From NCBI GenBank assembly GCA_013298125.1, contig JAAFJP010000002.1, positions 124,001 through 188,000 of the forward strand: DNA of 64,000 bases, in the 5' to 3' direction. Source of the DNA: Cytophagales bacterium. GTDB lineage: Bacteria; Bacteroidota; Bacteroidia; Cytophagales; Spirosomataceae. Position 1 is the stretch's first letter. The number at the start of each line of letters is the position of its first letter. Below the pieces are notes generated by a model. The model saw nothing but the letters and a program-made list of their open reading frames with translations. It searched no databases and was not told the origin of the DNA. Both the position numbers and the translations under genes were made by a program. Below are positions 57,453-60,593 of the stretch, piece by piece.

Positions 57453-57911
57453 ATGAAGAAGATTCTTTTCATAATTTTTATGGCTTATGCTATAATATCC
57501 TGTAATAAAGAAATAGCGAAAGAGCCAACCGTTTTTGAAAATATACCCGCCTGTGTTTTTGATTTAACAAAACAATATCCAGCAGATGTAAAAATTGCAT
57601 TGAGCGATAGATTTGACTTAATTGACGTAGAAGGTAAACTTTATTCAACCGCAAATTATAGCATTAATGTTAGACTTGTTTGGTCGGATGCTACAAAAGT
57701 AGATTTAAATAGATTTCCTTTATGGGATAAACGGAATAGAACAATTGAAGCTTGTAATATGCCCAAAGAGTTAAGTCAAAAGGATTTGGATGGTGTAAGA
57801 GTAAAGTTAAGTTGCCGTTTATTTTATGAGCCTTCACCTTGGGCTGGGCGAAGTATTCCCTCGGCAAATGGTTATGGTGTTGAACTTTTGAGAATAGAAT
57901 TATTGCAGTAA
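57453..57911 (+). CDS. Lipoprotein of the protease operon (2)
   Basis: 152 residues, paralogous with the preceding gene: MKKILFIIFMAYAIISC (lipobox, Cys 17), FENIPACVFDLT, RFPLWDKRNRTIEACNMP, LFYEPSPWAGRS, ending GVELLRIELLQ. The similarity covers the whole mature part, so they are tandem duplicates that have diverged. Function unknown, but an operon with a T9SS metzincin implies an envelope role. A strong terminator follows 62 bases later. Confidence 0.75.
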   Translation: MKKILFIIFMAYAIISCNKEIAKEPTVFENIPACVFDLTKQYPADVKIALSDRFDLIDVEGKLYSTANYSINVRLVWSDATKVDLNRFPLWDKRNRTIEACNMPKELSQKDLDGVRVKLSCRLFYEPSPWAGRSIPSANGYGVELLRIELLQ

Positions 57912-57972
57912 AAGAAACGAACGGATATTTCTCTGTCCAATGGCTGGTCTTCCCACCAGCCAAGTAAGCTAA

Positions 57973-58011
57973 CAAAAAAAAGCGACGAAGATAATCTTTG
58001 TCGCTTTTTTT
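57973..58011 (+). terminator. Intrinsic terminator of the protease-lipoprotein operon
   Basis: AGCGACGAAGA / TCTTTGTCGCT (one G-T pair) with a three-base loop, A-run before and T7 after; works in both directions. Confidence 0.9.
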
Positions 58012-58031
58012 GTACCTGAATTCTAAACACA

Positions 58032-58064
58032 AAAAAACCCTTGAATCCGCCAATTCAAGGGTCT
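58032..58064 (-). terminator. Minus-strand intrinsic terminator with TGGCGG loop
   Basis: On the minus strand ACCCTTGAAT-TGGCGG-ATTCAAGGGT is a perfect ten-base stem with a six-base loop, followed by T7. No annotated minus-strand gene lies close upstream, so a noncoding transcript is implied. Confidence 0.8.
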
Positions 58065-59178
58065 AATAATTTTTATGGGTATGGATTATTTAAAATCCTT
58101 TAATTACTTAGGCAAATTTTCTTCCTTACTATCTTTTGATTCTTTTTGAAAAAATTAGATTTAATTCATTACCGCCATAAATCTTTAAATCAAATTTTTT
58201 CAAGAATCTTATCATACAATTTAATTACCGCCATAATTGCCTTGTTTGATGATACAAAATTACCATACATTCATTAATGTACAAACATTTAAGATATAAT
58301 TTTTTCAAGAATTACACAAACTAAGAATTAAAGGAAAAATCGTTTGATTTTAATATGTGATTTTCAGAAGACTGCGTTCACCCCGCAAAATAGTACATTA
58401 ATATAGCATTTTAGTATCAATTTTAGCAAATCACGCATTTATGTATGTAGCATCGTAGATAATTCATTACGATTAAAGAAATTTGATACTTGTAATATTT
58501 CAAGAAAATGCCCTAAATTTTCGTACTTTATTTTCTACTTCTGGAATACAAATTTTTGAGTTTGTGGATAGGTATATAAAAAAATAAAGACTCAGTGCAT
58601 AGCTCCGAGCCTTTACGCAATCCGCCTAAGTAGTTATCTTCTGTGCCTTAGGAGGCTACAATATTTTAAAAATCATTTCAGGATACGCTGTGAACTCTTA
58701 CATAAATGCAAAAAGACAACACTCCACCTTCAATGCTTTGGGCAATAAAAGGTTGGAATCTTGTCTCATTTTACTTGGCGGAAAATTGTTAAAAAATGTG
58801 AAATAAAAGGCAACTAAGTGGCGGCTCAGTTACCAAAAACGTAGTTGGCGGACTACGCCCAAAATTGAATAGTAAAATGGCGGTTTTACCTACTCAAATA
58901 TTATTAGTGGTCTGGTTTCATATCTTTGGATACAAACAAAAACGACTGAACAATTCATACTGAATCATCAGAACAATGCCGAGAAATATTAAGGATTAAA
59001 ACAAAGAGGAAAAAGTATGCAAAGCCACTTAGACAGGAGCAAAATTTTTCTCATCCTAACATCTGGCGGAATGTCGCTGAGTGTAAAATATAGGGCAAAT
59101 ATTATGCCAGAATAGCTTTCTACCTACAAAATGAAAAATTAAATACCAATAATATCTACATTATAGCAAGTCCAACAA

Positions 59179-59268
59179 AACCTCACCCCCAACCCCTCTC
59201 CTACTGAGAGGGGAGAAAAATCGGACAAATGCTCCCCTCTCAGCAGGAGAGGGGTCGGGGGTGAGGTT
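59179..59268. repeat. GC-rich inverted repeat (37-base arms, two mismatches)
   Basis: Arms AACCTCACCCCCAACCCCTC... (59179-59215) and GGGGTGAGGTT-ended complement (59232-59268). The CCTCACCCCCAACCCCTCTCC word is a dispersed repeat known from diverse bacteria, to my memory. Confidence 0.9.
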
Positions 59269-59289
59269 ATAAAATTAAATCCCAATAAA

Positions 59290-59322
59290 AAGCAAAACCC
59301 CAAAGTCTTTCGACAATGGGGT
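59290..59322 (-). terminator. Candidate minus-strand terminator downstream of the SDR operon
   Basis: On the minus strand ACCCCA..GTC / GAC..TGGGGT forms a nine-pair hairpin with a tetraloop, followed by TTTTGCTTTTT. It would end transcripts coming from 59808 that carry three TGGCGG hairpins as a long 3' tail. Confidence 0.55.
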
Positions 59323-59807
59323 CTCTGTTTAATTGGGTCGGGGTTTTAACCGATAATAGCTAATCATTAAATATCTTAGGCAAATTACGATTCTTGAATC
59401 TGAGCCGCCACTCATTAAAATAAATCGTAAGTTTCTGAATCAAATAAAACTCCTTCCGCCAAATTCGTTTTTCTTTAATTCATTTCTTATTTCAAAAGCT
59501 TCCTTTCTTTATCCATAAGTCTTTTTGTTGCTATTGAATTGATTGAAAATTTCTTCCGCCAAAGTCCTTTTCTTTCAATTCTTGCTTATTTCGGAGGTCT
59601 TTTCCTCGTCGATAAGTTTGTTTGCATTAATCTGTATCTGTAATTGTAACGCAGGGTTTTATAGAAAGTCACAATAGATGTAACAACATTTAACATATAA
59701 TTATTCTGAGAAAATGGCATCATGTATTTATGTCGTTCGGCATAAATATTTCTCAATCGACCTCAAAAATATGGGGTAAAATAGTTAAAAATATTTTTGA
59801 AAAAAAT

Positions 59808-60593
59808 TTAGTTCAACCAGTTTTTTAGCTTTTTTGCATAAAAATATTGGTACGGATATGACATGATTTCAAATAGTTTTTGAGAAAATCTACTGATTTG
59901 AAACAATTTGGAGGGATAAATGTGAGTTTCGTTTCGGAGAATACCTTTTATCATGGCTCTCGCAACGTCTTCGGGTGTATGGGCAGGGAAAGGAATGGGT
60001 ACTTCTTTTGTAGGTTTTGTTTTGAGAGAAAAATCGGTAGAGCGATTGAAGAAGTTTGTTTTGGTAGCAATAGGATAAATCAAAGAAAGATGCCCAAGGT
60101 CTTGATTCTCAAAACGATAGGCATCTTCAAAACGGTCAAGGGCGGCTTTGGTAGCTCCGTAAAGAGCATAACCCGGGATAGCGAGTTTTGCCATTGCCGA
60201 AGAAGTCATCAATACAAAATATTCTCGACCCACATTAAGGTCCTTCATTTTCTGAAAAGCATAAATGGGCGAAAATACATTTACTTGAAAAATCTTCTCC
60301 ATCCGTTGCCAATCAGGTTTGTCAATGACTTCATAGTAAGCAAAACCCGCATTGGCAATAAAAATATCAATCGTCTGAAACTGAGTAAGGGCAAATTCAA
60401 AAAGCCTATCCACTTCTGATTGTTGGGATAAATCACATTTGAAAGAAATTATTTTATTGGAAGTATTTTCAACCTCATTCAAATCAACCGCCAAAACAGT
60501 AACTCCCTCAAAGCCAACTAATTGATTCAGCAAAGCATTACCAATACCTGATGCCGCACCTGTGAGGATGATATTTTTGTGAGTGATTTTCAT
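59808..60593 (-). CDS. SDR-family oxidoreductase
   Basis: 261 residues with ILTGAASGIGNALL, IANAGFAYYE, the serine in MTSSAMAKLA and YALYGATKAALDRF (Y-x3-K), and a C-terminal amphipathic end (KLFEIMSYPYQYFYAKKLKNW), typical of membrane-associated SDRs. Substrate unknown. Overlaps the acetoacetate-decarboxylase-like gene by four bases (ATGA), so the two work in the same pathway. The 3' flank carries TGGCGG-type hairpins. Confidence 0.88.
   Translation of the reverse strand: MKITHKNIILTGAASGIGNALLNQLVGFEGVTVLAVDLNEVENTSNKIISFKCDLSQQSEVDRLFEFALTQFQTIDIFIANAGFAYYEVIDKPDWQRMEKIFQVNVFSPIYAFQKMKDLNVGREYFVLMTSSAMAKLAIPGYALYGATKAALDRFEDAYRFENQDLGHLSLIYPIATKTNFFNRSTDFSLKTKPTKEVPIPFPAHTPEDVARAMIKGILRNETHIYPSKLFQISRFSQKLFEIMSYPYQYFYAKKLKNWLN

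Follow-up and report, generated by a model that had tools for sequence, protein, structure and literature searches.

In FinP-traJ a regulatory RNA pairs through its apical loops, and CsrB, RsmY and RsmZ are protein-sponge RNAs in which many hairpins carry a repeated loop motif. RNAIII of Staphylococcus aureus is described as requiring two loop-loop contacts with rot, and SroC and AgvB are described as binding and inactivating the small RNA (sRNA) GcvB (PMC8383071). CrfA is reported to be a sponge for SisA-D in Caulobacter (PMC12559287) and CJnc180 a sponge for CJnc190 in Campylobacter (PMC8687705), and the account of the ornate RNAs OLE, ROOL and GOLLD gives kissing loops and intermolecular contacts that are evolutionarily conserved (PMC12286853). 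Kissing sRNAs are known, then, and so are sponges and ornate RNAs that form oligomers. Here we describe a locus of freshwater bacteria related to Arcicella and Flectobacillus, at which neighbouring putative non-coding RNA genes appear to carry hairpins with complementary loop tips. It lies within 58001-59620 of a 64-kb stretch of DNA (G000:C12:124001-188000, the whole of which is called the window here) from a genome of 5.85 Mb, and it appears to consist of three units on the minus strand, denoted L, M and R. The reading that we favour, with moderate confidence, is that these are regulatory RNAs and that L and R capture M through kissing loops and seed pairing; the kissing is supported by covariation, and the sponge role we infer.

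The likeness to RNAIII-rot and FinP-traJ is that a regulatory RNA would pair via apical loops. Here, however, both partners are apparently non-coding, one hexamer loop is present in up to three to five copies, and the identity of the loop has shifted jointly in two lineages. Compared with SroC/AgvB, CrfA and CJnc180, the presumed sponges at this locus have an array of complementary loops added to an anti-seed. Unlike CsrB, RsmY and RsmZ, the locus has loops of two classes, complementary to each other and covarying from one RNA to another, and no fixed GGA. OLE, ROOL and GOLLD are homo-oligomers of one RNA, whereas here two or more different RNAs would be involved; Rfam gave no match across the window, and a relaxed Rfam search of 57900-59810 gave 36 matches, none of them at its gathering score. 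GibS and other sRNAs of Bacteroides are likewise sRNAs of Bacteroidota, and their source gives TAnnTTTG as the -7 consensus of the phylum's primary sigma factor, but they come from another order of the phylum, and no kissing array appears in those parts of the source that describe GibS (PMC7366714). In the open-licence literature we found no report of such RNAs in these genera, nor sRNA work on this family.

A first-pass annotation had listed ten hairpins with the apical loop TGGCGG or CCGCCA. We found one or the other hexamer at all ten coordinates, and the pairing figures it gave are exact: 15 of 20 positions at 59556, 13 of 20 at 59405, and 14 Watson-Crick plus 2 G-T pairs among 19 positions at 58228. 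An eleventh site, CCGCCA at 58776, is absent from that list. At least six of the ten flanking positions are paired at 8 of the 11 sites in 58001-59620. Dinucleotide shuffling of the whole region, the check that the annotation had proposed, yields a mean of 0.008 such sites and a maximum of 1 in 500 shuffles; shuffling the flanks only, with the 11 loops kept, yields a mean of 0.99 and a maximum of 4 (500 shuffles), against the 8 observed. The claim of hairpins with a constant loop and varying stems, apparently acting at the RNA level and one of them an intrinsic terminator, is borne out. Its description as a single array with a single shared loop did not hold: wobble asymmetry, folding, terminators and promoter boxes indicate three minus-strand units instead, with CCGCCA in the middle one (M) and UGGCGG in the outer two (L and R).

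The strand assignment comes from G-U pairs and from comparative folding. Wobble events that would interrupt a helix, counted as distinct though not phylogenetically independent events, place G-U on the minus rather than the plus strand in a ratio of 13:1 for L, 17:4 for M and 3:1 for R. Since coding DNA on the CCGCCA strand has 372 GT against 551 AC, the bias of M runs contrary to the coding background, and those of L and R run along with it. RNAalifold energies are lower on the minus than on the plus strand in all three blocks (-47.4/-26.1, -99.9/-76.9 and -32.8/-25.8), and the z-scores from 20 column shuffles are also better on the minus strand for L and R. It is therefore most likely, judging from these comparisons, that M displays CCGCCA loops and that L and R display UGGCGG, its exact complement, all on the minus strand. 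Folding predicts the CCGCCA loop to be open at three of the five M sites of G000, the genome of the window.

The stems covary around the constant loops. A search of 19 genomes found matches to the 1.9-kb region in 12, its own among them, some of the matches being a palindromic repeat alone; over most of its length the region can be aligned with G004, G007, G002 and G005, with constant loops and varying stems. In 44 rows of the UGGCGG type we counted 164 cells with two-sided stem changes, against 66.6 +- 6.1 in shuffled rows, and in 37 CCGCYA rows 128 cells against 49.8 +- 5.6; none of 500 shuffles was as high in either case. These were 44 of the 47 L/R rows available, the other three lying outside L, and all 37 M rows. 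Smaller row sets (32 and 31) gave 128 against 50.1 and 115 against 42.5. When the register is slid, 35-83 two-sided cells remain, and in the true register all 10 inner pairs show two-sided changes. The percentages of paired positions (77.6 and 79.2) are biased upward because only rows with 5 or more of the 10 positions paired had been selected.

The loops also change, and they do so on both sides. We scanned 19 loci, at structured positions, for loops that differ from one or the other hexamer by a single substitution; two or more substitutions were not counted. This gave 12 rows, which amount to 9 distinct hairpins because three genomes are present twice, and for every one of them the same genome offers a partner-class loop with which it can pair. 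In G023, which has one hairpin of each class, the M hairpin has the loop CUGCCA and the L hairpin has its exact complement, UGGCAG. In G005 one M hairpin carries CCGCUA, and UAGCGG is found in one hairpin each of L and R. Four genomes of the Flectobacillus group (G008, with two such M hairpins, G049, G064 and G087) combine CCGCUA in M with UGGCGG in L, which is compatible through a U-G pair; a survey of three loci of this group recognised no second recurrent loop beside CCGCUA. As 18 substitutions are possible, we estimate that in either lineage an exact match would arise by chance with a probability of about 1 in 18.

Both hairpin classes occur in all 14 genomes that have a strong M core outside g19 and g37. 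By contrast, none of the seven g19/g37 genomes with the core that were examined for six known loops has the M-L pair; isolated loop matches lie at least 607 nt off in four of the seven. The L hairpins are 2.0-2.3 kb from the M core in G008, G049, G064 and G087, and in G008 a 541-aa gene with an M20 dimerisation domain separates M from L. The M core itself is found in 35 of 150 genomes of the family, in 9 of 36 genera, and a covariance model of it under strict filters retrieved 10 of 291 genomes of the order, 8 in the family (own included) and two borderline ones outside. Partial weak core matches in G100 and G123 were discarded, the fetched stretches having neither core nor hairpin (a third such match is in G138), and the stretches around second core matches of G049 and G064 likewise held no core and no hairpin. 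In g19 the core is a short module, without hairpins and without a sigma54 box, between an amylase-type gene, which we take to be glgB, and an orotidine monophosphate (OMP) decarboxylase gene. Since the seed of M exists there without L hairpins, M looks like the older regulator, and the hairpin array seems to have been added to an sRNA that existed before it. The g19 module may be regarded as a conserved candidate sRNA in its own right; at L164, L152 and further loci of g19 this module, made up of the M seed and its terminator, is convergent to the amylase-type gene, and no hairpin array is present.

Unit M (58568-59086, minus strand) would give an RNA some 520 nt long; it has five CCGCCA sites, and its 3' module is conserved. 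The minimum free energy (MFE) of M has a z-score of -5.2 against shuffles. Its hairpins are at 59050-59083 (loop 59064-59069, not open in the MFE structure of the whole unit), 58864-58897 (loop 58878-58883), 58832-58865 (loop 58846-58851) and 58805-58838 (loop 58819-58824, with a 10-bp stem that has two G-U pairs on the minus strand), all on the minus strand. The weak fifth site (58762-58795, hexamer 58776-58781, minus) is predicted to be paired and forms no clear hairpin loop. At the 3' end of M lies a seed of about 20 nt, ACUACUUAGGCGGAUUGCGUAAA (58612-58634, minus), nearly invariant across genera, which is followed by the terminator AAAGGCUCGGAGCUAUGCACUGAGUCUUUA with its U-tract (58576-58614, minus), the stem of which varies between genomes with compensation. 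Upstream of M we found a sigma54-type -24/-12 box, TGGCATAATATTTG followed by C (59096-59109, minus; in a longer reading TGGCATAATATTTGC). TGGCAY-N5-TTG precedes M in 13 of the 14 genomes (it was not seen in G001), and does so twice in 12. This second box is farther upstream (for example in A. aurantiaca, L069, at about +668 from the core); none was found in the window. An RpoN domain is encoded in the genome of the window, and mapped sigma54 promoters are reported for Flavobacterium psychrophilum (PMC9723704).

Unit L (58030-58256, minus) would give an RNA some 225 nt long that forms three hairpins with UGGCGG loops, and it has an MFE z-score of -4.5 against shuffles. The hairpins, on the minus strand, are at 58214-58247 (loop 58228-58233), 58158-58191 (loop 58172-58177) and 58033-58066 (loop 58047-58052), the last being an intrinsic terminator followed by U7. 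Such a UGGCGG-capped terminator closes L in 11 of the 14 genomes; G005 and G023 have none, and in G041 the contig ends. The -7 box of L is TAATTTTG (58255-58262, minus), which fits TAnnTTTG, the -7 consensus given for the primary sigma factor of Bacteroidota from work on Bacteroides (PMC7366714), and a -33 box TTTG is at 58282-58285 (minus). TAnnTTTG is found shortly upstream of L in 13 of the 14 genomes, and TTG-N17-23-TAnnTTTG in 7, counts that have no shuffled control. In most of the 14 genomes an element like GTGTAATTCTTGRAAAAATT is present upstream of the promoter box (about 58293-58320 in the window, minus, and equivalent places elsewhere); perhaps it is an activator site.

Unit R (approximately 59297-59600, minus) lies downstream of a short-chain dehydrogenase gene (59808-60593, minus), and no promoter was recognised for it; it may be the 3' untranslated region of that gene. 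Its UGGCGG hairpins are at 59391-59424 (loop 59405-59410), 59442-59475 (loop 59456-59461, without a counterpart in the aligned congeners) and 59542-59575 (loop 59556-59561), all minus, and it ends in a terminator-like hairpin, ACCCCA..UGGGGU followed by UUUUGCUUUUU (59297-59322, minus). No open reading frame (ORF) of at least 50 aa lies wholly within 58054-59138. Between M and R there is a palindromic repeat (59179-59268, no strand assigned) unrelated to the hairpins, with 37-nt arms that are 95% complementary and 16 nt apart; it is spanned by a 54-aa ORF at 59139-59303, has dozens of matches in its own genome and in congeners, and is not at the same place in the aligned congeners.

A further complementarity between the units lies outside the loops. 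The anti-seed of R, CGUAAUUUGCCUAAG (59375-59389, minus), is a 15-bp complement of the M seed including three G-U pairs. Its pairing energy with the seed is -22.3 kcal/mol, against -12.9 +- 2.3 for shuffled sequence, with 1 of 300 shuffles as good; over five genomes 1, 2, 0, 0 and 21 of 300 shuffles were as good, so that the signal is clear in four of the five. In L the complement of the M seed is the heptamer GCCUAAG (58107-58113, minus), which 11 of the 14 L units contain. When targets of the seed were sought, the sequence CTTAGGCGGAT, with at most one mismatch, occurred at 58 places in the genome, two of them exact: M, and a stretch that reads as putative coding.

The same loops are displayed at a few other loci of G000. 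These were found by whole-genome searches for two loops 18-79 nt apart (one of them near such a match rather than at it) and by sampling, so single hairpins elsewhere will have been missed. L035 (G000:C2 near 75.3 kb) has UGGCGG hairpins on the minus strand, together with two CCGCCA hairpins and a pair of sigma54-type boxes; it is conserved in G004, G002 and G007 and partly in G006 and G003. Its RNA has the loop UGGCAG in G003 and has lost one loop in G006, which is uninformative on coevolution because M was not found in either genome. Three one-substitution matches at L035 (CAGCCA in G007, UGGGGG in G006, CCUCCA in G003) were rejected; they would not pair and are not at conserved hairpin positions. 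L005 (C2 near 126.0 kb) has three CCGCCA sites, the strongest with its G-U pairs on the plus strand, and matches in four congeners; a GC-rich palindromic element at L005:6150-6190 has many copies in the genus. Of the two CCGCCA hairpins at L191 (C14 near 56.1 kb) one is a terminator, and L214 has a UGGCGG-capped terminator. L235 (C29 near 47.4 kb) has three CCGCCA sites between a molybdopterin oxidoreductase gene, presumably that of a nitrate reductase, and an ABC transporter gene, and is partly conserved in G004, G007 and G002; its hairpins, including a strong one upstream of the oxidoreductase gene, lie at L235:1130-1560, and a link with nitrogen control is possible. With the RNAs of L035, L005, L191, L235 and L214 the M seed shows no clear pairing (196, 22, 59, 239 and 159 of 300 shuffles as good). 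L021 (G000:C1:77001-78000) has tandem units of about 138 bp, most of which contain CCGCCA; this repeat is apparently coding and is unrelated to the hairpins.

The hairpins are restricted to these few loci. In 785 kb of G000 we compared all hexamers that have 15 or more intergenic sites; the flanks of TGGCGG/CCGCCA are the best paired (n=38, with 4.53 of 10 positions paired on average against 2.84, z=7.0). The worry voiced in the first-pass annotation, that coding DNA might look the same, is answered by coding sites, which show no effect (n=397, mean 2.57). A genome-wide loop signal was nevertheless rejected, since z falls to 3.3 without the 11 sites of this locus (n=27) and to 1.2 when the L005 and L035 arrays are removed too (n=21), and since none of the 8 intergenic sites in a second 400-kb sample is structured. 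A preference of terminators for the loop was rejected as well: among 408 terminator-like hairpins in about 1.2 Mb CCGCCA is the commonest 6-nt loop, yet it caps just three, two of which are in M, and TGGCGG caps one. Loops one substitution off either hexamer are not enriched in G000. Neither hexamer is prominent in a sample of G008; in a sample of G012 the hexamer is, mostly from the present locus, which was included on purpose.

If the three units are transcribed, the mechanism could be as follows. Several 6-bp contacts between the CCGCCA loops of M and the UGGCGG loops of L or R would join the RNAs in the cell; the anti-seed of R or L (GCCUAAG and its neighbours) would next pair with the 3' seed of M and keep it from any mRNA target that it may have. 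Sigma54 would induce M, and the housekeeping sigma factor would serve for L; L and R would thus act as a multivalent sponge and determine the threshold for M, control running from them to M.

Several observations weigh against this proposal. In the UGGCGG hairpins a pair is predicted between the first U and the last G; this reduces the loop to GGCG, which would have to open before six kissing pairs can form. The RNAalifold z-score of M is slightly better on the plus strand (-18.0) than on the minus strand (-16.1). Exact coevolution is confined to two genomes, both metagenome-assembled. The M hairpin of G023 is weak, with a closing-pair probability of 0.86-0.93 in three contexts and 0.42 in a fourth, and is missing from the MFE structure of a 60-nt piece; the L hairpin of G005 is weak on its own (-1.4 kcal/mol), and the UAGCGG of that genome mismatches its two unchanged M loops (CCGCCA), other loops having been lost. 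R hardly folds better than shuffled sequence (MFE z of only -1.8), and R-type hairpins were seen in only 7 of the 14 genomes (G000, G002, G004, G005, G007, G012 and G041). Exact GCCUAAG is absent from L of G001 and G012, and in G041 the contig ends; only 4 of the 14 genomes have an L-seed pairing that is better than 95% of shuffles, and in G001, G012, G005 and G041 it is no better than average. An 11-nt search for complements of the seed revealed no intergenic target, and the L035 RNA carries both loop types.

The polarity might also be reversed: L, and R with it, would regulate other CCGCCA-loop RNAs through UGGCGG, and M would be a sigma54-induced decoy. The further CCGCCA loci L005, L191 and L235 and the housekeeping-type promoter of L fit this arrangement; it has against it that the M seed is the most conserved single-stranded stretch and is present without L hairpins in g19, and we think it doubtful, though worth keeping in mind. 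That R, M and L form one RNA of about 1.6 kb, with intramolecular or homo-oligomeric kissing in the manner of GOLLD and ROOL, would agree with their common strand, their conserved order in Arcicella, their complementary loops and the presence of both loop types in the L035 RNA. It is nonetheless unlikely, for M and L each have their own terminator and promoter boxes, a 541-aa gene stands between them in G008, R hairpins were not seen in 7 of the 14 genomes, and Rfam recognises no such RNA here.

A protein could read the loop instead, the arrays titrating it as RsmY and RsmZ do RsmA/CsrA, which the first-pass annotation had put forward. A constant loop on varying stems, several copies per RNA and arrays at unrelated loci are what one would expect of such a sponge. 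It fits one loop class only, however, and here two complementary classes lie on the same strand. Where M loops change, complementary changes accompany them in the L loops of that genome, which is not expected from a one-loop reader; nor is there a fixed GGA as in the hairpin loops bound by CsrA/RsmA, the CCGCYA loops having none and the base after UGGCGG being A, U or C. Because the complementary classes change together, we prefer direct kissing and consider a protein sponge improbable. The annotation had also suggested single-strand recognition sites for a recombinase; such sites, or palindromic leftovers of mobile elements, would account for palindromes in intergenic DNA, of which the repeat at 59179-59268 is a true example within the locus. 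A DNA-level element seems very remote all the same. Wobble pairs pile up on one strand and so indicate one RNA strand, orthologous hairpins hold their position across genera with compensatory change, and only the loop is common to the copies, whose stem sequence is not repeated as it would be in repetitive extragenic palindromic (REP) sequences or bacterial interspersed mosaic elements (BIME). Its third suggestion, packaging-like signals, finds no support either; nothing phage-like was noticed at the locus, where no phage search was run.

Beside the capture of M by L and R, a wider network can be imagined, although we hold it to be rather unlikely: any CCGCCA RNA may bind any UGGCGG RNA, forming RNA-only assemblies or a common titration pool. 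Its members in one genome would conceivably be eight RNAs or sites in six places (M, L, R, L005, L035, L191, L235 and the L214 terminator). On this speculative picture the network would join sigma54 control to other genes, including those at the L235 site, and the loop code would drift as a unit in each lineage.

If the capture of M by L and R is correct, the locus would offer a natural example of RNA-RNA recognition that is multivalent and follows a code one can read: several copies of a hexamer are set against several of its complement, and both sides have changed in two lineages. The evolution of such a code would be directly testable, the partner loop being predictable from one RNA. It would also be a first regulatory RNA circuit for this freshwater family of Bacteroidota, and one that is joined to sigma54.

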